A stretch of DNA of 64,000 nucleotides, taken from the NCBI GenBank assembly GCA_902362805.1, contig CABIXY010000004.1, positions 62,001 through 126,000 of the forward strand. Reading direction: 5' to 3'. Position numbers and translations under genes: made by a program. Under the pieces are notes generated by a model. It was not told where the DNA came from. It did not search any database and saw only the letters and a list, made by a program, of their open reading frames with translations. Shown here piece after piece: positions 11,333-58,996 of the stretch. The first letter of the stretch is position 1. Every line of letters begins with the position of its first letter. The stretch is from Eubacteriaceae bacterium (GTDB lineage: Bacteria; Bacillota; Clostridia; Peptostreptococcales; Anaerovoracaceae).

Positions 11333-11333
11333 C

Positions 11334-33997: not shown

Positions 33998-34741
33998 TTA
34001 TCGTGCTTTTATTGCAAGTAATAATGTTTCTGATAATTTAGCTGTTCTAAAGTGCATTTTTGTCAATTGGTTTAAAATTTTTTCCACACTCTGATAATTC
34101 CACGACATTAGGCTATCTACAGTACTAACTATGTTTTTACCACAAAAAACTTTATAGGTCAATCTCCATGTCCATTGATCCATCCCCACTTGCTTTATAT
34201 CAGTAATATACGTCTCATAGCGCAATCTTCCTTGAGTAGCCACCGATATTCTACTTCCTACTGGCGCAACAAGAAATTTCGGTTCTAAAAGTTCTATCAG
34301 GATTGGGACATTTATATTCAAATTTTTATCTAATTTATACAATAATTTTTCTTGTTCATCCCTTTTTAAATGTCCAAGTACTCCCATGCACATTACACCA
34401 CTTATTTTATCTCGAAATGAATATTTACCTACATCTATCGGCAATAGAGAAATTCTCTCTTTAACTTCATTATGCTCCATTAATCTTGCCATAAACGCTG
34501 TTCTCATATAAGCCGATGGTTCTAAAGCAATTATTTCTTTATCACATATCATATTAGCCATCTCTATTGTTGTTTTTCCAGTTCCTGCACCTATATCCAA
34601 AATGATTCCATCTAAATCCTTAACCATATCAGCAAATTTGTTTAAAACAATTTTTTTGTTCCCTATCTGTGAAAGAGCTGATAAATCATAAAATTCTACT
34701 GTCTCTCCGTATACATTCTCAATTTCATTCAATCCCGTCAT
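33998..34741 (-). CDS. SAM-dependent methyltransferase of the NRPS locus
   Basis: 247 residues, class I fold: motif I ILDIGAGTGKTT near residue 47, an acidic residue ending strand 2 (IIALEPSAYM), and post-I strands. Motif I is intact, unlike the degenerate domain in the large NRPS. It overlaps the reductase gene by 17 bases. Likely N-, C- or O-methylates a thiazoline/thiazolidine intermediate or the finished product; target unknown. GGAG is very close to the first ATG, so a TTG at 34732 is an alternative start. Confidence 0.88.
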   Translation of the reverse strand: MTGLNEIENVYGETVEFYDLSALSQIGNKKIVLNKFADMVKDLDGIILDIGAGTGKTTIEMANMICDKEIIALEPSAYMRTAFMARLMEHNEVKERISLLPIDVGKYSFRDKISGVMCMGVLGHLKRDEQEKLLYKLDKNLNINVPILIELLEPKFLVAPVGSRISVATQGRLRYETYITDIKQVGMDQWTWRLTYKVFCGKNIVSTVDSLMSWNYQSVEKILNQLTKMHFRTAKLSETLLLAIKAR

Positions 34742-35825
34742 TCTCCTTTTTTATTAAATGTCTTTTTTCCAAATCATAAAATATATTTTTTATGTCACCA
34801 AAATTGTCATAATCAACGATATTCATATAGCCCACTTTCTGACATATTTCAGACCATAATTTTGATACATATATTTGATATTGCGCCATGGACATTTTTT
34901 CTGTTCTATTTTGCTTAAATAAAATCTCTAAAGCTTTCTTTACTGCATCCGGCCATATTTGTTCAAACGTTTCTTTTACTGATGGTAACATTACATTTCC
35001 TATAGTAACACCAGAGGGTATATTTACTTCCTCTTCTACATTAATACTTAGTGTTCCATATTCATCTCTTGGCATATGCAAGAAAGGAAGCCATATTACC
35101 GGACCATGGGTATTGACCAGACAGAGCCGCCCTGTGGAAAATGTCAATTCTATTCTATGATATAAATGTAATGGATGGTCTATATCGTTACGATCCACAT
35201 TGGTATTCACTATAAATGTTACCGGAACCATTCCAATTATACCACTAATAACTCTGTTACCCCCTCCTGCCATAGAAGTTGTATAAGATTCTGCTACATT
35301 TCCCAATTTCCATGTAGATAAGCCTCCCAACGCACACCCCAATATATCTATTCCATCATATAATACATGTATAGCGCATTCCAAGGATGCATTTATAAGA
35401 TGAGCATGTTTACTTATTATTTGTGCCGCCTCTAAAAAATCTCGAATTGGCTTGATATACCGATAAAATGGATTCAACATAAAAGCGGCACTTCCGGATT
35501 CTCTTATACAATTAACAATTTCTACCTCATGAGCAGGATGTTCTAATAATGTTGGTATCCCTTTTGCAAGTATACTTTTAGCTATATTGGCACCGTTTCC
35601 ACCTCCAGCCGCATTAGGTACAACTACACATGCTGCATCAACATTTTGATTTATTTCTTTAATATCCGTATACATTGGCACATTTAGATTCTTTGAAAGA
35701 AGTCTGGATCTATCGCTTCCTTTTCCCAATATACCCATAAGCTCATATTCTTTACTTTCTGCAATAGCTTTCAAATAAATTTTCCCAAATCCTGTTCCAC
35801 ATACTAAAATCTGTTTTTTCTTCAT
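34725..35825 (-). CDS. Thiazolinyl imide reductase (Irp3/YbtU/PchG-like)
   Basis: 366 residues, Gfo/Idh/MocA-type fold. The N-terminus (ILVCGTGFGKIYLKAI) and the segments CVVVPNAAGGGNGANIAKSI and LEHPAHEVEIV are those of the NADPH-dependent reductases that convert one thiazoline of an enzyme-bound yersiniabactin or pyochelin chain to thiazolidine. This is the most diagnostic tailoring gene in the locus. Overlaps the saccharopine-dehydrogenase-like gene by 4 bases. Confidence 0.93.
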   Translation of the reverse strand: MKKKQILVCGTGFGKIYLKAIAESKEYELMGILGKGSDRSRLLSKNLNVPMYTDIKEINQNVDAACVVVPNAAGGGNGANIAKSILAKGIPTLLEHPAHEVEIVNCIRESGSAAFMLNPFYRYIKPIRDFLEAAQIISKHAHLINASLECAIHVLYDGIDILGCALGGLSTWKLGNVAESYTTSMAGGGNRVISGIIGMVPVTFIVNTNVDRNDIDHPLHLYHRIELTFSTGRLCLVNTHGPVIWLPFLHMPRDEYGTLSINVEEEVNIPSGVTIGNVMLPSVKETFEQIWPDAVKKALEILFKQNRTEKMSMAQYQIYVSKLWSEICQKVGYMNIVDYDNFGDIKNIFYDLEKRHLIKKENDGIE

Positions 35826-36847
35826 ATCTTTCCCTCTGATTTGAACTTATCTATTTTTTTAAGTTCATCTAACACTTGATATTTTTCAAGATAACTTGCC
35901 ATTGTATAAATTCCATCCTTCCTAGGCATTTCAAATATTGCATTGGCAGTAATCGCTAATATTTCGCCAGTTAAAACACTCGGATTTTTTCCTTCAAAAT
36001 AAATGCATCTACTATCATTTCCTTTATTTTGTCTTACCCATATAAAAGCTTTTTGGTTGCTATTTTTCTGTCCCATTAATGCATTTACTAAATCTTTTTT
36101 TTGACAATGCGCCTTATTTACTATTGAAAATAAACTTACAGGTGCCGCCGTATATGAATCAATATTAAGCATATATTTCCCTTGTATAATTTCTTGAATT
36201 TCTTCTGTAACATATGGCAATATAGATAATTTCGAAATTCTTGTTGGAAGATTCAGCGGACTTCTTTTCTGAGCAGGTAAAATTTTTCCATTTCGCACAC
36301 ATGCCATAGGAATTCCAGCTTTATAACTTTTTATTTCTTCCACATAATCGATTGCGGCAGCTTTTGAAAAATTATAGACACCTCCAATAATCATCTCTAT
36401 TAAGTCATCATTGAAAGCTTCTTTAAGCACAGAAGACAACATCCATCCTGATAACCCCGGAAATATTCCCGAACCAACTATAGCGGTACCTTTCATGCTA
36501 GAATTCCTCATTTTTCTAATTAAATGAATTCCTCCTGGGTCAACATACGGAATATTCTCTGCCATTGCTCCAAGTAACATTTTTTCACTATAGTCTGCGG
36601 AAGGTCCGATTGCTCCTATTACCAAATCACTTCCTTTAAAGAATTTTCCAATATTACTTTCCTTATCAATATCAAGTTCAAATAATTGGATGTTGGGAGC
36701 CATATACATTCCTGTATCTTTTATTGTTTCTATATTCCGTACACTGACTCTTAATGAATAGCCTAACTTACTTAAAACCTTACACGCTGTCACACCAACA
36801 GTACCTGTTCCGCCAAGAATACAGATTATTCTGCGATTATTTATCAT
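35822..36847 (-). CDS. Saccharopine-dehydrogenase-like oxidoreductase
   Basis: 341 residues. N-terminal Rossmann motif CILGGTGTVGVTACKVLSKL, then SDLVIGAIGPSADYS and YVDPGGIH as in saccharopine-dehydrogenase NAD(P)-binding proteins. Not a staphylopine-type opine dehydrogenase by eye. It is in the middle of the tailoring block, overlapping the last NRPS gene by 11 bases and the thiazolinyl reductase by 4, so it must act in the same pathway; a second reduction or a reductive release is possible, but unproven. Confidence 0.82.
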   Translation of the reverse strand: MINNRRIICILGGTGTVGVTACKVLSKLGYSLRVSVRNIETIKDTGMYMAPNIQLFELDIDKESNIGKFFKGSDLVIGAIGPSADYSEKMLLGAMAENIPYVDPGGIHLIRKMRNSSMKGTAIVGSGIFPGLSGWMLSSVLKEAFNDDLIEMIIGGVYNFSKAAAIDYVEEIKSYKAGIPMACVRNGKILPAQKRSPLNLPTRISKLSILPYVTEEIQEIIQGKYMLNIDSYTAAPVSLFSIVNKAHCQKKDLVNALMGQKNSNQKAFIWVRQNKGNDSRCIYFEGKNPSVLTGEILAITANAIFEMPRKDGIYTMASYLEKYQVLDELKKIDKFKSEGKI

Positions 36848-39800
36848 TTTCTAGTTCCCTCATAATAATATCAAAAATGTCATTACTATTAGATTCAAAT
36901 TCTCTAACGTTACCTAAAACAGCCTTTTCCCAAGATTTAATAGCAACTGAATTTCCGTCAATTATGCTTATATCTCCTAAATATAAATCACTTTCTTTTG
37001 CTTTAGATGGATTTATTAAAAAAATGCGGTTAATAATAATGTTTTCCCCCAATAGTTCACTTGCCTTAGTTATGCATAAAGAAGCCATTTCGGAAAAGGC
37101 AATAATATATTTCTTTTTAACATTTATGTCTTCATGACATCTTTCAATTATTTCTTGCCCTCCCACTCTCTTACAACTTATGTTTGAAGCGCTCAACTTT
37201 TCTATAAGAACATCTCTTATTTCATTTTCGTTATCCCCAAATATATATACAACAGTATATGAATTTCTTGTTTGATTTCCCGCATTACTATGCATTTGAT
37301 TTTTTGAAGGATTTTTACAATCCGATATATACTGAGCAATCCCCATAATTGTTGGCATCGTCAACGATGCCCGTAATATTTCATCAAATCTCATGCCTTG
37401 TGCTTCTTGTATGTCATTAACTATGCGCCCAGAAATCTGAGATAATAACAAAGAATCAAGTCCATTTTCTAATAAATTATCTTCATAATCAATATAATCA
37501 TTTCCAGAAATAGAGCATACGATTTTTTTGATACTTTTAGCAAGTTCTACATATTCCTTCTTTTGCGAAATTAAAGTTGCTTTTGCATTATGCTTTACCT
37601 TGATGTTCTTTTGTATACTCTCTGCCAGTCCTTTTCTGTCTATTTTGCCATTAGTAGAAAGTGGAAACCTCTCTACATTTACAAACTCTGAAGGAATCAT
37701 TGCTGGTGGCAAAAAAAAGGCTAACTGCTTTCTGTATTCTTCTTTCGTATAGGAAATGCTCGATATTTTATTTTTTATAAAAGCTATCAGCACACCCTTC
37801 CCTATACTTTGATTATAAACCACGCAACAATCTTCAATATTTTGCATTCCACGTATTGCATTTTCTATTTCCGCAATTTCTATTCTATGCCCATTGATTT
37901 TTACCTGATTATCTAATCTGCCTAAAAATTCAATGTCGCCATTCTCTACATATCTTCCATTATCTCCAGTGAGATAAATCCTGTTCTTTTCTTCTTCCAG
38001 ATAAACAAATTTTTCTTTTGTTAATGTTGTATCTCCTAAATAGCCTTCTGCCAAAGAATATCCTCCTATGGCAATTTGCCCCGAAACATATTCCGGACAA
38101 ATTCTCAATTCCTCGTCTACAACTCCCATCCACTGTCCAAGCAAAGCTTTTCCATATAATATAGTAGGCCTTTCTTCTATTTCATCAATTTCATGATATA
38201 TAGACCAAATCCCACCTTCCGTAGCGCCTCCCAAACTAATCATTTGAGCGTTGGTCATAATCTTTCTTAGTCTTCCTGGCAGACTAGTATTTATCCAATC
38301 TCCGGATAACAGTACTAATCTAACTGTCGGATAACTCTCCGATTTAGACGCAAAAGCATCTAACATTTCCGCCTGCGCTGGAACACTATTCCACAAGGTC
38401 ACTTTGTATTCATTAAGTAATCTGCCCCAATGGGATGCATCTGGTCCTTTTTCTGGATTCGGTAATACTAATGTTCCACCAACTCCCAATACACTAAATA
38501 TATCAAATACAGAAAGATCAAATGACAGTTCCGCAATACCAAGGATTGTATCCTCTTCCGAGATATTATACATATTTTCAATAGATATAAGAGTATTTTG
38601 TGCCGCAGTATGTGACATTACTACACCTTTAGGCTCTCCTGTAGAGCCAGAAGTAAATATTACATATGCAATAGGATTTTGGAATTCTGGATGCTTTTCT
38701 AATCGGTATTCCAAATTCTGAAGTATCATATTTACTTTTTTCTCATCCAATTCCACAATAACATTTGCTTTTGATAAAATTTTTTCTTGTCGTGCCAATG
38801 GCTGTTTTATATCAATAGGTAAATAAGAAAATCCAGCAATCAAAACACCCATTACTGCTGCAATTTGATTTACAGATTTTTTCATTCTTATCGCAACCAG
38901 TCCAGTTCTATTTTCCACAAATTCTTTTCTTAAATAACCTGCTATATATTCTGCTCTTTCCAACAATTCTCCATATGTCACTGTTTCAACAGCATCTATT
39001 ACGGCAGTTTTATTAGAATTCTTTTTCGCATACTTAACAAATCTCTGTTGAATACGAGATTGATTCGTAATACCTTTATTTCGTTCGCAAATTACTTTTT
39101 TCTTACTCGCACTTGGCACTATAATTTCCAATGGATTCTTCCATTCTTCCGAATGTTTTATTCCAAGTATTCTTATTGTTTCAGTAAAAGACTCAAACAT
39201 CTCCGTTACAATAGATTCTTTTATCGCACCTTTTCTTGTATCCCAGCTTATCATCAGGCCTTTTTCTTGATCTTCTGAATCTATCTCATCGACTATCTGA
39301 CAATCAATCCATACTTGAGGGGTATGACTAAACCCATATTCAATAGTGCCTACAGTGCCATCAGTCTTCAAAACCCCTGTAAATACGATCGGCATTAATA
39401 ATTCCTTTTCTTCAGACACTTTACTCAGTTCTCTTAGCACTTCGACACCAGAAAAAGAATTATGCTCTAAATCCTCCATCAATCTTTTTGTAATTTCTTT
39501 GACTCTTTCTATAAAACTCATATTTTGAGTTACATTTACTTCTAGCAAGTTCACTGCTGTAAAGTCTCCTACTATGGAATTAGTATTATTTCCGATAGTT
39601 GGTCTATTTTGAATTGGTAAATTGAGTGTAAAATGTTTATTCGAACTCCACCTTGAAATAACTTCTGCGTATATACCAATAAGCACCGATGAAACTGTTA
39701 CTCCGTATTCTCCTGCAATTTCCTTTATACGTTTCCAGTCAGACTGATTAATATGTTTCTGAAATCGATAAAATTCATATGTATTTTCACACTTATCTGC

Positions 39801-40643
39801 GGCTCGTCCATCTTGTGGAAGAATTGGAGCCTCCGGCAATTTTTTCAGTCTTTCTAACCAATACATTCTATCCTGATGCCATTTTAAACTTCCTTTACGT
39901 TGTTGATTGAACATTGCATAATCTGAAAACTTATACCTTATTTTTTCTAATGAAGCTCCTTTCAAAAGTTCTCCCATTTCAGAAATCAGAAGTTGCACAC
40001 TTGCAAAATCTGAAACAATTAAATCAACAAGTAGATGGAAAAAATTTCCTTCTATACGCTTCGTTATTAGCACTTTAAATAATGGAGGTTCCTCCGTATG
40101 AAAAACATATTCACTAAAATCTTCCCTAATCTTAGATAAAGTATCTACTTTTTCCCTCTCTGCCATTTTTTGTAGATTTACTATTTTAATTTCATAATCA
40201 ATCTCATCTCTCTCTAAAATTTCAAATCCGACCTCTGTTACTTTCGCTCTTAGCATTTCATGCCTATTTACCAATACTTTCCAAGCTCTTGATAGTTCTT
40301 CTGCACTGTAGGAACCAAAATCAACCTCAATATATCCTTTACATCCAATTCCACCCCACTTCACAGCTTCTGTTTTTCCAACTAAATAGGCTGCTTGCAC
40401 ATCAGTCAAAGGATATACATTAGTTTCATAATCATTATCCGTAATAAACTCGTCTATCGTTTGTTTTTTCTTCAAAATTTCAATTATTTCTTCTTTATAT
40501 TTTTTAACTTTCTCTTTAGAATTTTCTGTAAAATTCCCTTTGGAATCTTTATATTTTAATTTTCCATCAACAGTTTCAAAAGTAACGCCTTTTTTTTCAA
40601 GCTCTACTAATAATTCTCCTGCTACTTTTTTCGTGTCCTGCAT
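36837..40643 (-). CDS. NRPS, docking-Cy-A-PCP with degenerate thioesterase-like tail
   Basis: 1268 residues. Residues 1-60 resemble a TubC N-terminal docking domain (LLVELEKKGVTFETVDGKLK). Cy domain from about 78 (YPLTDVQAAYLVG) with intact DxxxxDxxS as DLIVSDFAS near 215. Adenylation domain about 530-1010 with FTSGSTGEPKG, SFDLSVFDIFS, GGATEGGIWS and the A10 lysine (NGKIDRKG). Carrier Ser in LLENGLDSLLLS near 1064. The last 150 residues look like a small alpha/beta hydrolase with IIAFSEMASLC in place of GxSxG and no clear catalytic His. Cys-like pocket with Phe where the two large-NRPS A domains have Tyr. Would add the last residue. AT-rich DNA. Confidence 0.93.
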   Translation of the reverse strand: MQDTKKVAGELLVELEKKGVTFETVDGKLKYKDSKGNFTENSKEKVKKYKEEIIEILKKKQTIDEFITDNDYETNVYPLTDVQAAYLVGKTEAVKWGGIGCKGYIEVDFGSYSAEELSRAWKVLVNRHEMLRAKVTEVGFEILERDEIDYEIKIVNLQKMAEREKVDTLSKIREDFSEYVFHTEEPPLFKVLITKRIEGNFFHLLVDLIVSDFASVQLLISEMGELLKGASLEKIRYKFSDYAMFNQQRKGSLKWHQDRMYWLERLKKLPEAPILPQDGRAADKCENTYEFYRFQKHINQSDWKRIKEIAGEYGVTVSSVLIGIYAEVISRWSSNKHFTLNLPIQNRPTIGNNTNSIVGDFTAVNLLEVNVTQNMSFIERVKEITKRLMEDLEHNSFSGVEVLRELSKVSEEKELLMPIVFTGVLKTDGTVGTIEYGFSHTPQVWIDCQIVDEIDSEDQEKGLMISWDTRKGAIKESIVTEMFESFTETIRILGIKHSEEWKNPLEIIVPSASKKKVICERNKGITNQSRIQQRFVKYAKKNSNKTAVIDAVETVTYGELLERAEYIAGYLRKEFVENRTGLVAIRMKKSVNQIAAVMGVLIAGFSYLPIDIKQPLARQEKILSKANVIVELDEKKVNMILQNLEYRLEKHPEFQNPIAYVIFTSGSTGEPKGVVMSHTAAQNTLISIENMYNISEEDTILGIAELSFDLSVFDIFSVLGVGGTLVLPNPEKGPDASHWGRLLNEYKVTLWNSVPAQAEMLDAFASKSESYPTVRLVLLSGDWINTSLPGRLRKIMTNAQMISLGGATEGGIWSIYHEIDEIEERPTILYGKALLGQWMGVVDEELRICPEYVSGQIAIGGYSLAEGYLGDTTLTKEKFVYLEEEKNRIYLTGDNGRYVENGDIEFLGRLDNQVKINGHRIEIAEIENAIRGMQNIEDCCVVYNQSIGKGVLIAFIKNKISSISYTKEEYRKQLAFFLPPAMIPSEFVNVERFPLSTNGKIDRKGLAESIQKNIKVKHNAKATLISQKKEYVELAKSIKKIVCSISGNDYIDYEDNLLENGLDSLLLSQISGRIVNDIQEAQGMRFDEILRASLTMPTIMGIAQYISDCKNPSKNQMHSNAGNQTRNSYTVVYIFGDNENEIRDVLIEKLSASNISCKRVGGQEIIERCHEDINVKKKYIIAFSEMASLCITKASELLGENIIINRIFLINPSKAKESDLYLGDISIIDGNSVAIKSWEKAVLGNVREFESNSNDIFDIIMRELENDK

Positions 40644-40646
40644 TTT

Positions 40647-42392
40647 TTAAATTTCCCCCTCTTCTACAAATTCTGCTATATCTGTATTTTTTCTCTTATC
40701 AACCAATTTTGTTAGTGCGTTAATTGATGGATTCATAAAGACCTCTTTCATGCGTACCTCTATTCCGCAACGAGCATTAATAGCCGCAACAAATCTAGCC
40801 GCAAGCAAGCTGTCTGCACCTATCTTAAAAAGGTTCTCATCCAAATCAGCCACTTTATTTTTCAATAGCTCCTCCCAAATCATCAGTACAATATTTAATA
40901 CTTTGTCAGACATTATTTCCACACTATCAGTTTTCTGATATTCTGCCAATCTTCTTCTATCAACTTTTCCATTTGCATTAAGAGGAAAATTTTCTAATCT
41001 GTTTATAGAATTCGGTATAGAATACTCAGGAAGATGTATCTTAAGATAATCTTCTATTTCACTCTCTGCAATGTACTCTCCCAAGTAAAATGCAACTAAT
41101 TCTTTATGGTATTTATCCCCCTGAGCAACAACTACGGCTTCTTTTATTCTTGAAATACTTTTTAATACACTTTCAATTTCTCCCAACTCAATTCGATGTC
41201 CACGTATCTTTACTTGGGTATCCATTCGCCCTAAAAACTCTATCGTTCCATCTGCCCATCGCCTTCCCCGATCTCCTGTTCTATACCAACGTTCCCCTTT
41301 TACATCCGTAATAAACTTTTTCATTGTTAGCTCTTCATCATTAATATAGCCTTTCGCCAGACTTCCACCTCCAATTTGCAATTCACCAGGAATATCAACT
41401 CCGCACTCCACAAAATTTTCATCCGTAATCCTATATTTCTGTTTTGGTAATGCTTGCCCATAAGGAATAGAATTCCACAATTTATCTACTTTTGAAACGC
41501 AATAATAGTTGGACCAAATTCCGCCTTCTGTCGCTCCGCCCAACGCTACAAATTGCGAGTTTACTGAAGTTACTTTATACCATTTCTCCGGTAAATATAA
41601 AGGAATCCAGTCCCCTGACACTAATGCCAACCGCAATTTACCAAAATGATTATTTTCCCCCATTATCAAAAACATGTCCAATAACGCGGGGGCACTATTC
41701 CAAATAGTAATTCCATAAATCTCTATCAGATTTTTCCATACTTCTGGATCTCTAAAGTCGTCTTCATCAATTAAAACAATTGTCCCTCCAACAGTTAAAA
41801 GACCAAATATGTCAAAAACCGACAAATCAAAATCAAATGCTGATATATTTAATACGGAATCTTCCGCACCAATATTCCACATATGTAAAATTTCTTCTAT
41901 TGTATTCATTGCAGCCACATGACTCATTTCTACTCCTTTAGGTTCTCCGCTAGAGCCCGATGTATAAATAATATAGGCAGTATCTTTTGAATTATTTTCA
42001 ATACACCCAGTCCATGGATTCTCTTCTAAAAAGGCTTCATCCTGCAATACAAGAGCCGGCTTGACATTTTCTATGATTTTTTTCCGACGTCCTAACGGCT
42101 GCTTCATTGCAATCGGAACATACGCTGCACCTATTGCAAGAATTCCTAACAATGCAGCTACTTGTCCAATACCTCTCGGCAATATAACCACAATCTTATC
42201 ATTTCTTCTTACTCCTCTTTGCCACATATAGTTTGCTGCACGCAACGCATATAAACGCAACATCTTATAAGAAACTTTCTCATTTTCATAGATAAGCGCA
42301 ATTCTCTCTGGATATTTCAATGCATTTTCATAAAATTCTCCATGTAATGTTTCCTTTCTATTAGAAAACTCTCGATCGTTCATCATATACAT
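40647..42392 (-). CDS. NRPS, stand-alone A-PCP didomain
   Basis: 581 residues. Adenylation domain about 15-480 with YTSGSSGEPKGV, FDFDLSVFDIFG, TIWNSAP, GGATEGGIWS, the GD motif (YRTGDRGRR) and A10 lysine (NGKVDRRRL); carrier Ser in FKIGADSLLAA near 526. There is no condensation or Cy domain, so the nearby free Cy protein (43412-44845) must act in trans. Cys-type pocket residues, Phe at the position that is Tyr in the first two A domains. Three bases before the next NRPS gene. Confidence 0.93.
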   Translation of the reverse strand: MYMMNDREFSNRKETLHGEFYENALKYPERIALIYENEKVSYKMLRLYALRAANYMWQRGVRRNDKIVVILPRGIGQVAALLGILAIGAAYVPIAMKQPLGRRKKIIENVKPALVLQDEAFLEENPWTGCIENNSKDTAYIIYTSGSSGEPKGVEMSHVAAMNTIEEILHMWNIGAEDSVLNISAFDFDLSVFDIFGLLTVGGTIVLIDEDDFRDPEVWKNLIEIYGITIWNSAPALLDMFLIMGENNHFGKLRLALVSGDWIPLYLPEKWYKVTSVNSQFVALGGATEGGIWSNYYCVSKVDKLWNSIPYGQALPKQKYRITDENFVECGVDIPGELQIGGGSLAKGYINDEELTMKKFITDVKGERWYRTGDRGRRWADGTIEFLGRMDTQVKIRGHRIELGEIESVLKSISRIKEAVVVAQGDKYHKELVAFYLGEYIAESEIEDYLKIHLPEYSIPNSINRLENFPLNANGKVDRRRLAEYQKTDSVEIMSDKVLNIVLMIWEELLKNKVADLDENLFKIGADSLLAARFVAAINARCGIEVRMKEVFMNPSINALTKLVDKRKNTDIAEFVEEGEI

Positions 42393-42405
42393 TTCCTTTC
42401 CTCAA

Positions 42406-43398
42406 CTATTCCACATTCTTTTTAAGCCATTTTACGACCCTCACAATAACCTCATCTTCTATAGTACCGCCTTCATCCTTTAATGGAGAACTTACCTTAG
42501 AAAGTGAATGTCCCAACCCTTTAAACAAAATTATATCTGCATTATTCCTTGCTGCCTTTGCTATTTGCACAGCTTCTACCGGAGAAATCCATCCGTCATT
42601 CAAACCATGAAGTACTAAAATAGGTAATTGGATTTTTTTTATGTCATCTAATATTCCTGCCCATGTTTCTCCAGGAGCATTTTCAGCAAATCGAATTAAA
42701 GTAGTAGGATCTGCAACTATTTCATCTGCCAATGGTATCCAATTATCTATTATGCTGAATCTTCCTTTCCCTTCTGGATCAAGTTCTTCATTAAATTTCA
42801 TATTTCCCTCCTTATCCGTACCAAGAATAAGTAAATACAGAGAGAAAGAGATAGATGTGGAGTCCGGTATGCAATTCAAAAAATCCGAAATTTCTAATAT
42901 GCTATCACTATTGTTATCCAACTCTTTCAACTTTTCTACTGTAAGTTCGCGCAATATATAAGAGAAATAGGAACTCCATCCTTCTGCAATACCCGACTGA
43001 AGAATCAAAGCCTGCACATTCGGAAAATCTGAAACTAAAGTTGTACAAACTCGTACTCCTTCACTCCATCCATAAAACAGAATTCCTTCCACTTCAGACA
43101 AGCCAGAAACAAATCTCGTTACCTCTCTGGCATCCCGAATAATTATTTCTATATCATAATTTTCTCTTTTATCATAACGAAATACCGCATATCTAGCTTT
43201 CACAAACCCTTCGCTCAATAAATCAAAATTACGGGATACTATACCTCCCATGGATTCAACTGTAGCGTGCCGATCAGATGGACCGGAACCATGAAATAAA
43301 ATAATCGTTTTCCATTGACCTTGCCTTTCTGGCAAATCTAATTCTCCTGAAATTTTCATTCCATTTTCCAAAGTAATTTCCAATTCTTTTACAAACAT
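42406..43398 (-). CDS. Alpha/beta hydrolase inside the NRPS locus
   Basis: 330 residues. Oxyanion motif FHGSGPSDRHA near 35, nucleophile elbow GWSEGVR (Ser near 113), Asp in LHGLNDGWISP near 270 and His in GLGHSLS near 300: a complete triad. Residues resemble dienelactone/acyl-thioesterase-type hydrolases, not a GrsT type II thioesterase. It sits between the two halves of the split module, so chain release, editing or hydrolysis of the finished metallophore are candidate roles. Confidence 0.88.
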   Translation of the reverse strand: MFVKELEITLENGMKISGELDLPERQGQWKTIILFHGSGPSDRHATVESMGGIVSRNFDLLSEGFVKARYAVFRYDKRENYDIEIIIRDAREVTRFVSGLSEVEGILFYGWSEGVRVCTTLVSDFPNVQALILQSGIAEGWSSYFSYILRELTVEKLKELDNNSDSILEISDFLNCIPDSTSISFSLYLLILGTDKEGNMKFNEELDPEGKGRFSIIDNWIPLADEIVADPTTLIRFAENAPGETWAGILDDIKKIQLPILVLHGLNDGWISPVEAVQIAKAARNNADIILFKGLGHSLSKVSSPLKDEGGTIEDEVIVRVVKWLKKNVE

Positions 43399-43411
43399 AT
43401 TTTTATTCTCC

Positions 43412-52515: not shown

Positions 52516-52529
52516 GCTACTGTCTCCTT

Positions 52530-54119
52530 CTACTTTTCCTGAGCCATCCGTTCTAATGCTTTCTTATCTATTTTCCCTACGCTGGTCAGCGGCCATGTTT
52601 CAACCCGTTCTATCTGATCTGGCATTTTATACGCCGCAACGCCTATTTCCCGCAGAAACCTGTGGATTTCCTGTAAATCGATCCCGGCTTCATCATCGGT
52701 TACAAGGAATGCGCATATCCGATTTCCAAGGGTTTCATCCGGAACGCCGACAACGGCTGCCTCTTTGATCTCCAGATGCCTGCAAAGGTAAGCTTCAATC
52801 TCTGAAGGCATGATCTTTTCTCCGGCGCGGTTAATCTGCTCTTTGATCCTCCCACCCAAACGCAGTCTTCCGTCTTTCGTCCACATAGCCTTATCGCCCG
52901 TCCGATAAAATCCGTCCGGCGTAAAGCTCTTTTTATTCGCTTCCTCCGCCATATAATAACCATCAATCGTATACGGGCCTCTGGATAATAATTCCCCAAA
53001 AACTCCTTCCGGTACGGTCTTATCCTCTTCATCCACAATCTTCACTTCATCCGCAGGAGACACCGGAGTTCCCTGGCATCTTGCGATCAGGGAACCTTCA
53101 TCCTCCGGGCTAGTAAAGGACAGTAGCCCCTCCGCCGTACCAAATACCTGCATCAGTTTACACGGCCATTCTTCAATGATCTTATCCGCAAGGGAATCTT
53201 CCAGCATTGCGCCGCCCACCTGCAAAATCCGCAGGCTGGATATATCATAATCTTCATCCCATTCCAGCATTTCCATGCACACAGTAACCATAGCAGGAAC
53301 CAATGCCGTTATCGTGACACCTTCCTCTGTAATTGCGTCAAGGATATCATCCGGGCTGGTCGCAGACGCAAGCACAACTTTTCCTCCCACGTCCAGCGTG
53401 CCTAAAAGCCCCGGGCAGCATAACGGGAAATTATGAGCTACCGGAAGAGACGCCAGATAAACGTCACTGCTATCCAGACGGCATCTCTTCGCGGACATGC
53501 GGGCATTATACATATAATCCGTATGGGTGCGCGGAATCAGTTTCGGAACCCCTGTCGTCCCGCCGGACAGCAAAAGCACCGCCGTTTCATACCCATCCAC
53601 AGCCGGAAATGCTCCATTTTCTCCATACGTTTCCGCAATCATTCCACTGATATCCCCGGATTCGCTATCTACAAATATATGCCGGATACATGAATATTTC
53701 TCTTTCATCGCATTTGCCATCGGCACATATGAAAATCCCAGATATTTCTCCACCACAATATAAGCGGCCGGCTTTGCCAGTTCAATAATTCCTTCCAGTT
53801 CCGCCTCCCTGTGGGCCGGCAGCATCATGATTGGCACCGCCCCAATCTTGGAAAGCGCAAAAAACACGATCACAAAAGAAATCCTGTTCGGAAGCTGCAC
53901 AAGCACTTTGTCTCCCTTTAAAATCCCTTTACGCAGAAAAGCTGCCGCAAGACAATCTGCTTTTTGCTTTAATTCCATATAACTGATCTCGTCTTCACTG
54001 TCCGTGACCGCAATTCTTTCTCCATATTTTTCCGCCCACCTATCAAGCTGTTCTCCAAATCCACATCTCTCCCAGCCTTCCAGATTCTCATATTTGCTCA
54101 TATCTTTCTTATAACCCAT
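52530..54119 (-). CDS. Aryl-AMP ligase, salicylate-type (YbtE/PchD/DhbE family)
   Basis: 529 residues. AMP-binding motif LLSGGTTGVPKLIPRTH, GD motif (YRTGDKAMW), and catalytic Lys in SVGKIDKKAL. Aligned to DhbE, the pocket loop reads HNFPLCCPG, with Cys at position 240, and AEGLLSF, with Leu at 337; Cys/Leu are the salicylate-type residues, Ser/Val the dihydroxybenzoate type. Tyr236 is Phe. It would form salicyl-AMP and load the aryl carrier of the adjacent NRPS. ATG at 54119 after AAAGGAG; a longer frame into the PPTase gene is rejected. No isochorismate-derived salicylate synthase is seen nearby. Confidence 0.93.
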   Translation of the reverse strand: MGYKKDMSKYENLEGWERCGFGEQLDRWAEKYGERIAVTDSEDEISYMELKQKADCLAAAFLRKGILKGDKVLVQLPNRISFVIVFFALSKIGAVPIMMLPAHREAELEGIIELAKPAAYIVVEKYLGFSYVPMANAMKEKYSCIRHIFVDSESGDISGMIAETYGENGAFPAVDGYETAVLLLSGGTTGVPKLIPRTHTDYMYNARMSAKRCRLDSSDVYLASLPVAHNFPLCCPGLLGTLDVGGKVVLASATSPDDILDAITEEGVTITALVPAMVTVCMEMLEWDEDYDISSLRILQVGGAMLEDSLADKIIEEWPCKLMQVFGTAEGLLSFTSPEDEGSLIARCQGTPVSPADEVKIVDEEDKTVPEGVFGELLSRGPYTIDGYYMAEEANKKSFTPDGFYRTGDKAMWTKDGRLRLGGRIKEQINRAGEKIMPSEIEAYLCRHLEIKEAAVVGVPDETLGNRICAFLVTDDEAGIDLQEIHRFLREIGVAAYKMPDQIERVETWPLTSVGKIDKKALERMAQEK

Positions 54120-54120
54120 T

Positions 54121-54807
54121 TTATCTGTCTCCTTTCTCATGCGCCGCCACATACGCAGCATATCCTTTGATCCTGACCGGATACAGAAACCAGTCCTGAT
54201 CTTTCTTATCTTTTTCTGCAATTTTCTCGTTTCTGACAGAGAAGAAATCCATTCCTCTTCCTAATCCAATTCCAAGCGCCTTTACATATGCCTCTTTCGC
54301 CGCCCAGTACTGGAAAAACAGATCCGGTCCTTCATTTTTTACATCTTCCGCTTCTTCTGCAGTATAAAAATTTTCCGCTATCTCCCTATAGTCCGGGCAC
54401 TCTGCCATCTCCTGCACATCTACTCCGATATCCATTCCGACAGCGAATACCGCCAGTATGAATTCACCCGAGTGCGAAATGTTAAAATCCACTGTCCGCT
54501 TTCCCGCAATCTTTTTATGATAAGGCTTACCCAGTTCATTGACAGAAAAATCAATCGTTTCCATATCTAAGTATCTTTTTAAGAGGATCCGCACGACAAC
54601 CTTCCCGGCTATATAACGCATCCTGTCTTCAGGAAAACGGAATCTTCCGGCTTGCTCCAATTCCTGCCCACTCAGGATATATTCATGGTTCTTCCAGAAA
54701 TCTGTCATTTCAGGCCAGCGGATACACCATATATGTATCTCATTTTCACGGATATAAAGTTTGTCTGCTGACAGAAATTCCTTTTCTCCGTATCGTTTAA
54801 TCTCCAT
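54121..54807 (-). CDS. 4'-phosphopantetheinyl transferase (Sfp type)
   Basis: 228 residues. Magnesium/CoA motif GVDVQEM (with IGVD preceding) near 113 and WAAKEAYVKALG near 165 are the two signatures of Sfp-type transferases, with length typical. It would attach the phosphopantetheine arm to the aryl and peptidyl carrier domains of this locus. One base before the aryl-AMP ligase start. Confidence 0.94.
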   Translation of the reverse strand: MEIKRYGEKEFLSADKLYIRENEIHIWCIRWPEMTDFWKNHEYILSGQELEQAGRFRFPEDRMRYIAGKVVVRILLKRYLDMETIDFSVNELGKPYHKKIAGKRTVDFNISHSGEFILAVFAVGMDIGVDVQEMAECPDYREIAENFYTAEEAEDVKNEGPDLFFQYWAAKEAYVKALGIGLGRGMDFFSVRNEKIAEKDKKDQDWFLYPVRIKGYAAYVAAHEKGDR

Positions 54808-54817
54808 TTTTCATTCT

Positions 54818-55543
54818 CTAAAGCAGTCTCATGACCTCACTTATTACTTCGTCTTCACAATCCCTCAGATAAAAATGTCCTCCCGGAAATATCCGGTAGT
54901 TAAAATCATTGTCCGTATACTTTCCCCATTCCAAGATCGCACTCTCATCCGCTTCGTCGTCCTTTTCTCCGCCAAATGCAGAGATAGGTGTATGCAGCAC
55001 TACTCCCGCTTTATCATAATACGTTTCATCCATGGTAAAATCCGCCCGCAGCATAGGCAGAAAGAAATCCAACAATTCCTGATTCTCTAGTATCTCTTTT
55101 GGCGTCCCTTCAAATCTTCCCAGTTCCCTCTTAAACGCTTCATCCGGAAGATGATAGATTGGATTTGGCTCCGGAATACTAGGAACCCGGCTGCCGGAAA
55201 TAAACAGACATTTTGCAGTATATCCCGCTGCCTCCAACCGTTTTTCCAGCTCATAAGAGATCTTCCCACCCATACTGTGTCCCCATAAGGCATACGGTCC
55301 GTACACAACCTTTCTTACAGCCTCTTCCAGGTCATCTAACATAACCGACATATCTATATACGGTTTCTCCATGATCTGTTCTTCCCTTCCCGGAAGCTGA
55401 ACTGGACATACCGTTACTTTCCCCTGCATCTTTTTCGCCCACTGGTTATAAGCAGAAGCACCGCCTCCCGCAAATGGCAGACAAAACAAGGTTATTTTCT
55501 CTTTACTAATATTTTCCGTATTTTTTATCAATTTCATATTCAC
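54818..55543 (-). CDS. Type II thioesterase (GrsT/YbtT-like)
   Basis: 241 residues. LFCLPFAGGGASAYNQW at the N-terminus, nucleophile elbow WGHSMGGKISYELE near 95, Asp in GGEKDDEAD and His in FPGGHFYLRD: complete catalytic triad. Removes misprimed acyl groups from carrier domains. First biosynthetic gene after agrB, 83 bases downstream with no evident terminator. GTG start at 55543 after GAGG, with an ATG two codons in as alternative. Confidence 0.93.
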   Translation of the reverse strand: MNMKLIKNTENISKEKITLFCLPFAGGGASAYNQWAKKMQGKVTVCPVQLPGREEQIMEKPYIDMSVMLDDLEEAVRKVVYGPYALWGHSMGGKISYELEKRLEAAGYTAKCLFISGSRVPSIPEPNPIYHLPDEAFKRELGRFEGTPKEILENQELLDFFLPMLRADFTMDETYYDKAGVVLHTPISAFGGEKDDEADESAILEWGKYTDNDFNYRIFPGGHFYLRDCEDEVISEVMRLL

Positions 55544-55626
55544 TTTTATATTCCTCTGGCATAATGTTCTTTTTCTCTCTGTTTACCATCATTTTGTAAT
55601 ATGTTTTTCTCAATCACTTCTTATTT

Positions 55627-56226
55627 CTACCTGTAATTAGTTACATCTAACTCTTTGTCAAAAAAATTTTTGATCCATCCCAATATCAAACCGGACGCCA
55701 AAACAATATGCGCTACCATAATCCCGTTTACGATCAGGGAATATCCAATCACAGAAAAAACACCTGCTATCGCGCATTCAATAACTAAAATTACCCTCGC
55801 GCGCATCCCATAAACTTTTTTCTCTTTCGCATCCAACTTCTTGCTGCTGGCATCTACCGGCGCCATGATAAATATAACGCCAACCGCGACAAACCATATG
55901 ATCCGCATTTGCCATATTACAGCCGGAGCAGACGCCAGATACAGACTGCATAGAAGGACAAGGATACCGGAAACAGCCATGCAGCCCCCTGCCTTTTCCA
56001 AATGAATCCCTCCGGCATACTGCCTTAAAACAGTAAAGGGCAATAAAAAGACTATCATCTCCATCCAATTCCCCGTTATGATGCCAAGTATGACGATGAT
56101 AAGGTATATTACCACCCTGCCCAGCAGTACGCCGTAAGCATATTCATACAGCCTGCGGTCTTTCTCTTCAAGAATCCCATTCCTGCTTTGTAGTTCAAAA
56201 AGCCGACCAGCCATTTTTTTCCACAC
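55627..56226 (-). CDS. agrB: AgrB, AgrD-processing membrane peptidase
   Basis: 199 residues with four to six transmembrane helices. The catalytic His and Cys are in the conserved stretch LRQYAGGIHLEKAGGC at about residues 66-81, the hallmark of AgrB. It cleaves the AgrD C-terminus and forms the thiolactone. GTG start at 56226 shares one base with the agrD stop (TAGTG), with GAGG 8 bases before. Upstream of the NRPS genes in the same direction. Confidence 0.95.
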   Translation of the reverse strand: MWKKMAGRLFELQSRNGILEEKDRRLYEYAYGVLLGRVVIYLIIVILGIITGNWMEMIVFLLPFTVLRQYAGGIHLEKAGGCMAVSGILVLLCSLYLASAPAVIWQMRIIWFVAVGVIFIMAPVDASSKKLDAKEKKVYGMRARVILVIECAIAGVFSVIGYSLIVNGIMVAHIVLASGLILGWIKNFFDKELDVTNYR

Positions 56227-56384
56227 TAGAATTTCCTCATTTTCTTAACTTCTTCCGGCTCATCTTCCTGATAGTACAGCCAGTTGCACGCCAGATTTGC
56301 CGTATACGCCGTCAAGCAGAGTGCAAGACAGTTTACAGCTCCAAGCAGTTTGATTCCCATGTTTTTTCTGATTATTTTTTTCAT
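56226..56384 (-). CDS. agrD: AgrD, autoinducing peptide precursor
   Basis: 52 residues, too short for usual ORF calling. An amphipathic, basic leader (MKKIIRKNMGIKLLGAV), then a core ending ANLACNWLY, then an acidic tail (YQEDEPEEVKK). Cys followed by four residues and a Pro six residues after the ring end matches the AgrD plan of Staphylococcus aureus. The predicted signal is a thiolactone between that Cys and Tyr of CNWLY, with a tail of unknown length. AGGAGG precedes the ATG; stop overlaps agrB start. Confidence 0.9.
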   Translation of the reverse strand: MKKIIRKNMGIKLLGAVNCLALCLTAYTANLACNWLYYQEDEPEEVKKMRKF

Positions 56385-56397
56385 AGTTACAAAGCCT

Positions 56398-56478
56398 CCT
56401 TTTTTCCGAAAGTTTACACAAAAATCGCCCTCTTTTCAATTACCGTGGCAAAAACGGTAACTTTTTGGGCGATTTTTG
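56398..56478 (-). promoter_or_regulatory. agrDB promoter with nested inverted repeats
   Basis: Reading the minus strand: TTGAAA, a 17-base spacer and TAAACT (with TG before it) form a sigma-A promoter about 30 bases before agrD. Immediately upstream of -35 is a dyad TTACCGT-TTTTGCC-ACGGTAA. An outer perfect 11-bp pair, AAAAATCGCCC...GGGCGATTTTT, encloses both. The inner dyad is a candidate AgrA site; the outer pair may also terminate agrC transcripts. Confidence 0.7.
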
Positions 56479-56485
56479 CACGTCC

Positions 56486-57781
56486 TTATTTGATTGTAAA
56501 GATCAGCTTAACAGAGAACTCCCGTTCTCCTGCCTCCACTCGCATAATTCCCGCATACTTTTTAACCAGTTTTCCAACCGTGTGCAGTCCGATCCCGTGA
56601 CTGTCCGCGTCTCTTTTGGTGCTTATGTACCTGTCCTTGTCCTTTAACAGAGGGACGACATACCCATTGCAAAATTCCATGACAAGGAAATGCCCCGCAT
56701 TTCCCATATACATCCTGCATTCCACATATCTGCCATCTTCTGTCTTTTCTGCCGCTTCCAGTGCGTTATCCAAAAGATTCCCTACGATCGAGATCAAATC
56801 CAACTCTTCCAGAAAATCCAGTCTGAGATCATTACCCAGAGTAATCCTATAGGATATATCCTTAGATTCTGCAAGAAATTTTCTTTCACATAGGATGCTG
56901 TTCAAGATCGGATGCTCACAATATACACTTTTTTGAAGATTCTGAATCCGGACGCCTAAATGTTCCATGATGTCCTTAACCTCTTGATTCTCTCCTTCTT
57001 CTATCAAGCCGGCTACTGTACAGATAAATTTATTTATATCGTGTAAGAATGCTCTGTTATCCTCATTAACCTTATTCATATACTGCAGATTGGCAATCTC
57101 CGCCCTGCTTTTCTGGTATAGCCGGTCCATCTTCTTCACTTCTTCTGATTTTTCTACAAACCTGTCAAATACTGTGAAAATGAAGATATTCGTCATTAAC
57201 AGAAGCGAAGCTCCTACCGGAACCATAACCCTGTTCATTCCTTCAAAAGAAATATTTGAATAAAACACACATCCTAATATAATGATCGTAGCGGTTGGCA
57301 GCATGAGCAGCACAGTAAAAGTTTTATTCTCAATCGTCAGATAATCCCTTTTCCTTGTTACCTGATTAATGCATTTAATAAACAGAAATGTCATGGTACT
57401 CATCAGCAGGAGTGCTAATGTCTTTTCTATTTCAGTCCTGAAGCCCTCGGACGCACCAGTCACGCCATATGCATTCGTAAGTGCCGCAAAGAGAAATTCG
57501 GGAATAATTGCCAGCACATAATAGCAGCATACCGTAACCAGCTTCTTCCATATATTTCCCCGGAACACAACCATAGACGCAATCATATAGATTACCGGAA
57601 TCATTACCATATTAAGTATTGAGGATTCCAGGCGGTTGGTTCCGAACATTGCCAGTGCTGCGATACAATATACGAGAAATTTTTCCCAGAATCTTTCTCT
57701 TCTGTATGGGAGTATGTTCTTTTCCAAGTCCTCCAACAGATACATCTGAAGAAGACAAATCAAATAATCTCTTATTATCAT
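56486..57781 (-). CDS. agrC: AgrC-type sensor histidine kinase
   Basis: 431 residues. About six transmembrane helices in residues 1-215, a coiled linker, phosphoacceptor region with AFLHDINKFICTVAGL (His near 265), and a GHKL ATPase: N-box SIVGNLLDNALEAAE, G-box HGIGLHTVGKL. Typical of the HPK10/AgrC family that senses cyclic peptides. Start overlaps the agrA stop by 4 bases. Confidence 0.94.
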   Translation of the reverse strand: MIIRDYLICLLQMYLLEDLEKNILPYRRERFWEKFLVYCIAALAMFGTNRLESSILNMVMIPVIYMIASMVVFRGNIWKKLVTVCCYYVLAIIPEFLFAALTNAYGVTGASEGFRTEIEKTLALLLMSTMTFLFIKCINQVTRKRDYLTIENKTFTVLLMLPTATIIILGCVFYSNISFEGMNRVMVPVGASLLLMTNIFIFTVFDRFVEKSEEVKKMDRLYQKSRAEIANLQYMNKVNEDNRAFLHDINKFICTVAGLIEEGENQEVKDIMEHLGVRIQNLQKSVYCEHPILNSILCERKFLAESKDISYRITLGNDLRLDFLEELDLISIVGNLLDNALEAAEKTEDGRYVECRMYMGNAGHFLVMEFCNGYVVPLLKDKDRYISTKRDADSHGIGLHTVGKLVKKYAGIMRVEAGEREFSVKLIFTIK

Positions 57782-58521
57782 ACCATGCCGTTCCTTTCCC
57801 CAAGAAATGTTATCAGTGCGTCGGCAAACTGTCCTTTTCTCGACCTCGAAACATTCAACTGGATTCCAAACGGCAGCAACGCAACGTTCTTTTCCAATCC
57901 TTCCACTTTTGCCAAATTCACAATATAGCTGTTGTGTGCATACTCAAATCCCCTTCCGGCCAGACACTCATACAGATCACTTAAAGATTCCTTGCAATGC
58001 ATCTCTTCTATCTTTCCCTGTCTGGCAATGTATATCGTACAGCCCCTTTTCGCCAGACAGATATATAAAATGTCTTCCGTATGGATGCGCATTATCCTTC
58101 CCGCCGATGTAACTGTCACGGAAGAATCTCCACAGCACAATTTCACTTTTAATAAAATCATAGGTATTTCCTTTTTCAGACTTCTGTCATGCAGATCCTT
58201 CATGATGTACCGGAACGGTTGTCCAACATTAATGCTGTCAGGAGTCGGTTCAAAACAGCCGGAGCAGAACACCAATATCGCTGCTTCATTATATTCCCTC
58301 AGCTTCAGTACTGTTTTATTTCCATCCAATCCAGGCATACGCATATCCATAAAAATCAGATCATGCAAAATATCCGCATCTTCCAATAATTCTTTTCCTG
58401 ATTCATATTCATAAAACCGTATCTCATTCGAAGACAGAATCCCTTCCGTTTCTATGACCGTCTTTATTTTCTCCCTGTATTCTTTATCATCGTCGCAAAT
58501 TGCTATTTTACACATATTCAT
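57778..58521 (-). CDS. agrA: AgrA-type LytTR response regulator
   Basis: 247 residues. Receiver domain 1-130 with acidic cluster CDDD and phosphoacceptor Asp in LIFMDMRMPGLDG; LytTR DNA-binding domain from about 145 (IHTEDILYICLAKRG, FEYAHNSYIVNLAKVEGLE). Would bind the agrDB promoter and so drive both the signal genes and the NRPS genes downstream. First gene of the agrACDB order. Confidence 0.94.
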   Translation of the reverse strand: MNMCKIAICDDDKEYREKIKTVIETEGILSSNEIRFYEYESGKELLEDADILHDLIFMDMRMPGLDGNKTVLKLREYNEAAILVFCSGCFEPTPDSINVGQPFRYIMKDLHDRSLKKEIPMILLKVKLCCGDSSVTVTSAGRIMRIHTEDILYICLAKRGCTIYIARQGKIEEMHCKESLSDLYECLAGRGFEYAHNSYIVNLAKVEGLEKNVALLPFGIQLNVSRSRKGQFADALITFLGERNGMV

Positions 58522-58603
58522 CCTCCAGTGTTAGTTTCTTCTAACCCTTTCCCATAAAAAAACCATCTTGCAGAATCTGAATCCTAAGATTATTTGCCTG
58601 TTC

Positions 58604-58843: not shown

Positions 58844-58996
58844 GGTATCGACCACCTTTTTTTCTTCTATTTTATATAAATCGGCTTTAAAAGGTCGCCC
58901 ATATATAGTCTTTTTGATCTATGCACGATATTTTTTTAACAGTTTTTCTTATTCTAGCAGAAATCCGCTAAATTTCTATATTTTATTAGATACATG

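Follow-up and report, generated by a model that had tools for sequence, protein, structure and literature searches.

The window, the whole stretch of 64,000 nucleotides that was analysed, carries on its minus strand the genes agrA, agrC, agrD and agrB followed by eleven equibactin-like metallophore genes, all collinear in its list of open reading frames. In staphylococci, the agr system consists of AgrB, AgrD, AgrC and the LytTR response regulator AgrA, and all of these types of component are present in this one locus with intact frames. The agrA gene (57778–58521, minus strand) encodes a response regulator with a LytTR DNA-binding domain (Pfam Response_reg and LytTR), and agrC (56486–57781, minus) an AgrC-like membrane histidine kinase of the GHKL type (HATPase_c_5, 67 bits), which scores 33 bits with the staphylococcal AgrC model, far under its cut-off of 500. 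The 52-aa autoinducer precursor is encoded by agrD (56226–56384, minus; TIGR04223, 37.4 bits against a cut-off of 19); its core is ...TANLACNWLYYQ, in which the predicted thiolactone ring is probably CNWLY. The start of agrB (55627–56226, minus) coincides with the end of the agrD frame at 56226, and its product is a peptide-processing membrane protease (PF04647, 107 bits) whose His75 and Cys82, presumably the catalytic residues, are invariant in an alignment of 10 sequences. Just upstream of agrA lies a gene for a Cro/CI-type HTH protein (58604–58855, minus; HTH_26/HTH_3). The locus differs from staphylococcal agr in its order A-C-D-B, in a metal box before agrA and in the NRPS locus directly downstream. 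A first-pass annotation had described this row of closely spaced or overlapping genes on the minus strand, running from agrA via the thioesterase (55543) as far as a methyltransferase (33998), and the coordinates of the reading frames agree.

The biosynthetic genes, all on the minus strand, begin with a type II thioesterase (TEII, eqbB-like; 54818–55543; PF00975, 142 bits) and a 4'-phosphopantetheinyl transferase (PPT, eqbC-like; 54121–54807; ACPS, 59 bits). They are followed by a salicylate/2,3-dihydroxybenzoate-type AMP ligase (eqbD-like; 52530–54221), whose score of 550 bits falls under the cut-off of 723.6 of TIGR02275, a 2,3-dihydroxybenzoate model, and which probably starts at 54119, past the PPT stop. 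The next gene (44845–52515) encodes an Irp2/EqbE-like NRPS of 2556 aa with two C-type, two A, three carrier and one methyltransferase domain and a Cy-type motif, DNIIFDGWS, at residue 1648. Further downstream lie a stand-alone condensation/cyclisation protein with a TubC docking domain (43412–44845; motif DCIILDAWS), an EstD-like alpha/beta hydrolase below the cut-off of the EstD model (42406–43398), a stand-alone A-PCP protein (40647–42392), a 1268-aa NRPS of the order TubC-C-A (36837–40643; motif DLIVSDFAS), an NAD-binding NmrA/epimerase-like protein (35822–36847), an Irp3/EqbF-like thiazolinyl imine reductase (34725–35825; TIGR01761, 232.7 bits against a cut-off of 188.8) and a SAM methyltransferase (33998–34741). 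The cyclisation motif D-x4-D-x2-S occurs within three of the four condensation domains, with three more matches outside C domains; the 2556-aa NRPS does not show it in its first C domain, and HHxxxDG is found in none of the four. With the aryl-AMP ligase, the Irp2-like NRPS and the thiazolinyl imine reductase, the core set for a thiazoline metallophore is present, and the predicted product is of the equibactin/yersiniabactin type.

Beyond the biosynthetic genes, the minus strand encodes an AraC-type regulator (32733–33704; HTH_18), uptake proteins (26131–32602; an ECF S component of the Trep_Strep type, CbiQ, a double ATPase and two ABC permease-ATPase proteins) and a DtxR/MntR-family metalloregulator (25751–26119; Fe_dep_repr_C), whose best PDB matches are chains of MntR, DtxR and IdeR. 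Genes for MobC/NikA-like and MobA/VirD2-like relaxase proteins lie on the plus strand (23706–25375), and on the other side of agr there is a mobile-element backbone protein (59362–62160, minus; YodL/LPD16/LPD25), which we take to be LtrC. The relaxase and backbone genes, together with a near-identical element in different hosts, are features of an integrative conjugative element.

Among studied loci of this type, the closest is the equibactin locus eqbA-N of Streptococcus equi, which a metal-dependent repressor controls. It lies on ICESe2, an element reported to have CDTn2/CDTn5 and Tn1549 as relatives (PMC3672683). According to the available portion of that report, both loci share the order thioesterase, PPT, salicylate-AMP ligase and Irp2-like NRPS, as well as a thiazoline reductase, importer genes, paired YbtPQ-like ABC proteins, a DtxR-like regulator and a mobile location, a likeness of gene order and description rather than of compared eqb protein sequences (PMC3672683). 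The window departs from equibactin in that its operon begins with agr, its DtxR gene sits at the opposite end of the cluster, and an AraC regulator and additional stand-alone C and A-PCP proteins are present. For equibactin, the available portion mentions no quorum sensing: "quorum" is absent from it and both word-starts "agr" belong to "agreement" (PMC3672683). Cluster 1 of the Clostridium kluyveri NRPS clusters and yersiniabactin, likened here by description only, share with the window an assembly line of the thiazoline type that includes Irp2- and Irp3-like proteins, and the same portion describes no agr for them (PMC3672683). Among the best matches listed from the open-licence literature, no description of agr adjoining such a metallophore locus was found. 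Two human gut isolates near Mediterraneibacter/Ruminococcus lactaris, Mediterraneibacter gm002 (PMC6675978) and Ruminococcus B05 (PMC6328661), carry the same antiSMASH equibactin label, given in genome announcements that describe neither agr nor regulation.

Equibactin also offers a parallel for the putative regulatory sites of the window. An exact GTTAG-N6-CTAAC box lies at 58531–58544, 10 bp before agrA, and a second, with one mismatch, at 55637–55650, where it overlaps the 3' terminus of agrB and precedes TEII; further boxes precede the AraC gene (33720–33733) and the ECF transporter genes (32635–32648). The same pattern forms the core of the palindromic site that EqbA, the repressor of equibactin, recognises; this palindrome stands before eqbB, contains GTTAGATGTATCTAAC and was required for EqbA binding (PMC3672683). 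The exact pattern TTAG-N6-CTAA occurs five times in the window against 0.95 expected, each time 6–94 bp upstream of a gene start. A looser pattern that allows up to two mismatches shows no enrichment (14 against 17.6 expected). The agrA box is present in three further genomes, G001, G437 and G893; in G001 and G893 it is identical to that of the window, and in G437 the arms are kept while spacer and flanks differ. In a fourth genome, G266, the search revealed no such box ahead of agrA. At the junction of agrB and TEII, the arms are kept while the spacer varies among the window, G001, G437 and G893, and in G893, where the agrB frame stops inside the box, the second arm is still kept outside the frame. 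Furthermore, of 18 thioesterase genes examined, 13 have a box in the 200 bp upstream, against 0.096 expected by shuffling; the 18 were picked after the box matches were known, and four of the 13 belong to near-identical elements. Four loci in which no thioesterase was found (G173, G572, L141, L160) and one with a contig end (G655) were excluded from the 18, as were G739 and L179, which have thioesterase-like genes with no box nearby and would make the count 13 of 20. The boxes are thus putative operators of a DtxR-family metal repressor, by their conservation and by analogy with EqbA.

Between agrB and TEII, no terminator-like site was called on the minus strand, and the 83-nt gap folds scarcely more stably than its shuffles (-3.9 kcal/mol, z -1.07, matched by 31 of 200), in line with the earlier claim that no evident terminator separates the two genes. 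Because the box at 55637–55650 adjoins a TTGACA at 55661–55656, the junction may have room for a candidate separate metal-regulated promoter. A promoter between 55627 and 55543 had been named as telling against joint transcription; box and TTGACA leave space for one, whereas the promoter scan made no call and the -10 would be weak. A strong hairpin lies between agrC and agrD (56385–56490; -33.3 kcal/mol, z -4.1, 0 of 200 shuffles as good) and could split agrA-agrC from agrD-agrB. The same stretch includes a conserved 76-bp element (56408–56483, minus) with hairpin and promoter-like sequence (TTGAAA-17-TAAACT, 56439–56411), which is 98.7% identical between the window and G437, against 86, 91, 89 and 94% for agrA, agrC, agrB and agrD. 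Neither the metal-repressor boxes nor this hairpin had been described in the first-pass annotation.

In contrast to staphylococcal agr, no AgrA tandem repeat was found in the window. Before agrD, none was significant in the window, G437 or G266. The same scan was positive for 6 of 14 control agr loci, so it may miss such repeats, or they may not be a universal feature; it took any pairs of 10-mers spaced 20–23 bp against letter shuffles, so that the control repeats are not necessarily AgrA sites. For the controls, 56 agr loci were fetched, 16 considered and 14 used; L226 duplicates the site of L005, and L229 was omitted despite a visible agrD. No tandem repeat before agrA, the XRE gene or TEII reached p <0.05 (seven gaps of the window and three of G266). 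A pair between the AraC and ECF genes, TTTTGGGTAG/TTTTGGGTTG with 21-bp spacing (p 0.035, uncorrected for ten gaps), was set aside, being located before neither agrD nor TEII.

These results bear on the earlier proposal that an AgrA-driven promoter ahead of agrD transcribes the signal and the metallophore genes together. The synteny and the absence of a terminator were borne out; the AgrA repeats and a control free of metal were not, and agr does not appear to replace metal control, given the EqbA/DtxR-type boxes before agrA and TEII. That the promoter before agrD alone drives agrD-agrB and the metallophore genes, with metal taking no direct part, therefore seems improbable to us, even with its conserved promoter-like element and an open junction, since such boxes recur in relatives, a DtxR-family gene lies on the element and the AgrA repeats were not found.

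The same synteny, which the first-pass annotation had suggested seeking elsewhere, was found in G001, G437 and G893, which carry this element or a close relative of it, and in the diverged locus of G266; in all of them, as in the window, TEII comes immediately after agr. In G266, AgrA, AgrC and AgrB are 37–43% identical to those of the window (AgrB 43%) and the thioesterase 60%; the visible 4 kb ahead of its agr gave no hit to the backbone protein of the window. G893 keeps the head agr-TEII-PPT-SalA, followed by different biosynthetic genes. Within the stretches fetched, agr was seen in three of 17 genomes bearing Irp3 (the reductase) and not in the other 14, among which the G655 contig ends inside the NRPS and that of G255 offers no more than about 2.5 kb of upstream sequence. 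One of the 14, G850, has its biosynthetic genes in the same order as the window, and the contig of L130, whose ligase is the closest to that of the element among the matches listed (75%), has no agr either. A ligase-alignment scan of genome contigs showed agr only at L131 (the G001 record) among 80 loci listed, mostly from other phyla.

In the AgrB tree, the loci with agr ahead of TEII fall into a single clade (94/97) that excludes the 14 control AgrBs, and in the ligase tree G266 and L130 group with the window set (85/87), both supports being just below the starred level of the tree tool. The clade also includes database rows known from sequence alone, without gene neighbourhood; the seven such AgrB rows in the tree were selected because they resemble the query, a choice that promotes clustering. 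The G437 ligase, split by the fetched pieces, was omitted from the ligase tree, and that of G572, which was out of alignment A1, entered it with other ends. Recombination may have placed agr beside the cluster without any functional link, as the patchy occurrence (3 of 17) and the commonness of agrB relatives among kin (41 of 145 related genomes at E 0.001 or better) would allow. We give such a chance neighbourhood very little credence, because the diverged G266 has the same order and strand, the AgrBs share a clade and metal boxes stand in front of the agr module.

Close AgrB relatives were found only in G001 among 145 relatives, 64 genomes of its genus, 392 of its order and 118 of its class (overlapping draws); in the order, 22 pass E 1e-25 and all except G001 score at most 115 bits. 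In the public protein set, AgrB clusters near that of the window are numerous, e.g. P0031 (1104 member sequences, 99% identical) and P0014 (575, 86%). Two AgrB clusters 54% and 51% identical to the window, P0072 and P0100, have longest contigs equal in size to those of thioesterase clusters P0144 (61,954) and P0137 (32,527), respectively, whereas P0066 and P0077, two large AgrB clusters that fall in the same clade as the window, had no contig-size match among the 120 thioesterases listed of 5142. No AgrB relatives were found in IMG/VR contigs, and plasmid records gave one weak match (23% identical).

Elsewhere, agr is a known regulator of other traits. Here it might control another trait of the element, e.g. 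conjugative transfer, leaving the adjacent metallophore operon to metal alone from its own box-bearing promoter. Its place between backbone genes and cargo, the separate metal box of TEII, the search that yielded no AgrA site and the lack of agr in most related loci would fit; the position directly before TEII in G266, where the visible upstream sequence holds no backbone match, the head retained in G893 despite different downstream genes, and the agrA box in four loci do not, and we consider this reading rather unlikely.

We favour, with modest confidence, a thiazoline-metallophore locus under dual control, carried by a mobile element of gut Lachnospiraceae and headed by a complete agr module of its own, in which a metal repressor gates both agr and the synthetase genes and agr probably adds density control of the metallophore genes, the agr step being suggested by conserved position. 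The metal-loaded DtxR-family regulator (25751–26119), or a host homologue, would bind the GTTAG-N6-CTAAC boxes and repress agrA, the thioesterase, the AraC gene and the ECF transporter, as box conservation and EqbA in S. equi suggest. Metal shortage would then free agrA-agrC, agrD-agrB and the synthetase genes. The intact components point to AgrB and AgrD forming a thiolactone peptide, probably on CNWLY, to which AgrC and AgrA would respond. AgrA might then boost transcription from the conserved element before agrD, judging by its position and conservation, and readthrough from agrB into the thioesterase operon would make metallophore output density-dependent. Because the agr and metallophore parts both carry putative repressor boxes, production may depend on crowding as well as metal hunger. 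Such an element, joining metal repressor and agr, would offer a direct example of gut commensals that place a public good under the control of both nutrients and density.

A narrower proposal, possible though short of probable, is a transferable metal-gated quorum sensor, in which the DtxR-family repressor controls agr and the metallophore operon via the same box and the peptide signal would therefore come only from metal-starved cells. If true, the signal would report the density of starved carriers, and the element would link a public good that is costly to make with a private vote that moves by horizontal transfer.

As for the limits of the element, homology to the window starts at 18485 in both the G001 contig, also listed as Blautia wexlerae MSK.20.46, and the stretches of G437, which belongs to a different genus, and the shared stretch extends to the window end. 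The flank at 9600–18400 resembles many genera (best G090, 98–99%), and its first 3.5 kb occurs in G001 on another contig at 99%.

The locus lies on the minus strand from 58521 to 33998 and, by ORF calls, comprises agrA, agrC, agrD and agrB followed by eleven biosynthetic genes. Domain searches identified the agr parts as a LytTR response regulator, a GHKL kinase and an AgrB protease, with an AgrD precursor scoring over the curated cut-off. In the same searches the biosynthetic genes begin with a type II thioesterase (TEII), a phosphopantetheinyl transferase (PPT), an aryl-AMP ligase (SalA) and a 2556-aa Irp2-like NRPS, continue with a stand-alone condensation protein, a hydrolase, an A-PCP protein and a second NRPS, and end with an NAD-binding protein, a thiazolinyl imine reductase (over the cut-off) and a methyltransferase. 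Past them stand the genes of an AraC regulator and of the uptake proteins (an ECF-type transporter and two ABC permease-ATPase proteins), that of a DtxR/MntR-family regulator at 25751-26119, and then MobC and relaxase genes. The order of the first four biosynthetic genes is that of eqbB-C-D-E in the equibactin locus of ICESe2 (PMC3672683). The equibactin label has been applied to human gut isolates in genome announcements that do not describe regulation (PMC6675978, PMC6328661), and no description of agr at a locus of this type was found in the open-licence literature. A small Cro/CI-type HTH gene (58604-58855) directly precedes agrA in the window and in the related genomes G001, G437 and G893.

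The first-pass annotation had placed agr next to the thioesterase gene, and this synteny is real and reaches beyond the window, to G001, G437, G893 and the diverged locus of G266. Matches to the thiazoline-reductase family over the cut-off turned up in 8 of the 397 family-level and 9 of the 391 class-level genomes searched (16 distinct genomes), and G207, below the cut-off, completed a set of 17. In three of these (G001, G437 and G266) the thioesterase gene is immediately preceded by agr; no agr was seen in the remaining 14 within the stretches fetched, the G655 contig stopping inside the NRPS. The most informative case is G266, in which AgrA, AgrC, AgrB and the thioesterase are 43, 37, 43 and 60% identical to those of the window while order and strand are unchanged, and the AgrD core is CAWIY, compared with CNWLY in the window and G437. 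Twenty-four genomes from the genus of G437 were also searched and gave a further carrier, G893. Its agr-TEII-PPT-SalA head is retained, as are some 1500 residues of the first NRPS (94.7% for that piece), after which the genes are strongly divergent (reductase 27%, second NRPS 36% identity), with the reductase still over the TIGR01761 cut-off. The kept head and changed downstream genes suggest tail swapping and another product. On the stretch fetched for this genome (L216, 3643-13846), agr and the starter genes are kept and the downstream NRPS and reductase genes are different.

In the AgrB tree, the NRPS-linked AgrBs and seven database rows form one clade (94/97, not starred; bootstrap not fully settled), and all 14 control AgrBs fall outside it. 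Within the clade, G266 stands apart from the window and groups with the database clusters P0066 and P0114. In the ligase tree, G266, G893 and the window group together with L130, which is a contig deposited under a Sporosarcina MAG (85/87, not starred); agr is absent from L130. These trees fit one ancestral agr acquisition and a loss; separate acquisitions may be the alternative history. The L130 ligase is 75% identical to that of the window, and a metal box stands before its thioesterase. This contig, which also holds a putative DAHP-synthase-like sequence, may be mis-binned. Among the thioesterases listed, AgrB cluster P0072 and thioesterase cluster P0144 have longest contigs of exactly equal size (61,954), as do P0100 and P0137 (32,527), which suggests AgrB-thioesterase linkage; the large AgrB clusters P0066 and P0077 gave no such match among the 120 thioesterases listed of 5142.

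The metal box TTAG-N6-CTAA, a candidate DtxR-family operator, occurs five times in the window (6133, 32635, 33720, 55637 and 58531) against 0.95 expected, at least five being reached in 1 of 100 shuffles, and the gene that starts 6-94 bp downstream of each copy encodes a transporter, an AraC regulator, a thioesterase or AgrA. The full GTTAG-N6-CTAAC is matched exactly by the copies at 32635 and 58531 and with a single mismatch by those at 6133, 33720 and 55637; with up to two mismatches allowed, it is not enriched in the window. In the equibactin study, EqbA binding required a palindrome containing GTTAGATGTATCTAAC (PMC3672683). The short form precedes 13 of the 18 thioesterase genes examined by no more than 200 bp, versus 0.096 expected by shuffling; four of the 13 heads belong to near-identical elements, so the independent count is closer to 10 of 15. 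None was found in that interval in G889, G396, G255, G290 and G676. The 29 control agr loci (97,392 bases, upstream of agrA not always covered) contain it once. The box ahead of agrA has the same arms in the window and G437 but a different spacer and different flanks, and the region in G001 and G893 is identical to the window. The box at the agrB/thioesterase junction varies in its spacer across the window, G001, G437 and G893, and in G893 the agrB frame stops inside the box with the second arm still present. The junction box is also present in G266, where a box before agrA was looked for and not found.

An AgrA-driven promoter before agrD, transcribing signal and metallophore genes together, had been proposed. 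The synteny is confirmed, but this mechanism is incomplete. The locus looks to be under dual control, in which a DtxR-family repressor would act ahead of the agr genes as well as ahead of the synthetase genes, and agr would supply a density input. For the metal part, the reading draws on the conserved box and on an experimentally studied relative; for the agr part, it draws on the conserved placement of the genes and on their intact state. The leading alternative is a role of agr in the element's own functions, such as transfer. Homology to G001 and G437 starts at the identical base (18485); therefore the cluster is on a mobile element, one end of which is probably near that position. The G266 contig covers 4 kb upstream of agr, with an ABC ATPase-like gene, and the backbone protein of the window (59362-62160, minus strand) has no match there.

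A 76-bp block in the agrC-agrD gap is 98.7% identical between the window and G437, with agrA at 86.0%, agrC at 91.1%, agrD at 93.7% and agrB at 89.0%; identity is high again in the agrB-TEII gap (98.8%) and in TEII (97.2%). The block contains a promoter-like TTGAAA-17-TAAACT. A strong hairpin is predicted in the gap (z -4.1) and could terminate agrC transcripts, serve a regulator as its site, or do both. For the G266 gap the prediction likewise includes a long hairpin, a weaker one (z -2.3; 3 of 200 shuffles as good). Tandem repeats with 20-23 bp spacing precede agrD in 6 of 14 control agr loci (p <=0.05, uncorrected), and the same scan detected none before agrD in the window, G437 or G266. 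The stretch that separates the AraC and ECF genes (32603-32732) does contain a direct repeat, TTTTGGGTAG/TTTTGGGTTG, with 21-bp spacing (p 0.035, uncorrected); if real, it might be where AgrA acts on the uptake genes.

One G001 contig, Blautia wexlerae MSK.20.46 in its database entry, matches window 18485-63995, identity being 98.1-99.8% over the part that starts at 24345 and 87-95% over the part preceding it. G437, of another genus, shares 18485-22659 and 23086-64000 at 91-99%. At 24344/24345 the G001 copy (L034) has about 2.5 kb extra within the relaxase gene region, the window being continuous there. Window 1-18484 has no match on that G001 contig save a 195-bp piece at 88% in a second comparison; 3.5 kb of it is found elsewhere in G001 at 99%. 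The flank 9600-18400 is matched piecewise by numerous genera of the family (best 92-99%) and looks as if built from exchanged segments. Outside the element, two ABC permease-ATPase genes and a binding-protein-dependent permease gene (1562-6127) have a TTAG-N6-CTAA box (6133-6146) 6 bp ahead of the first gene, and they are perhaps a host metal-uptake operon under a similar repressor.
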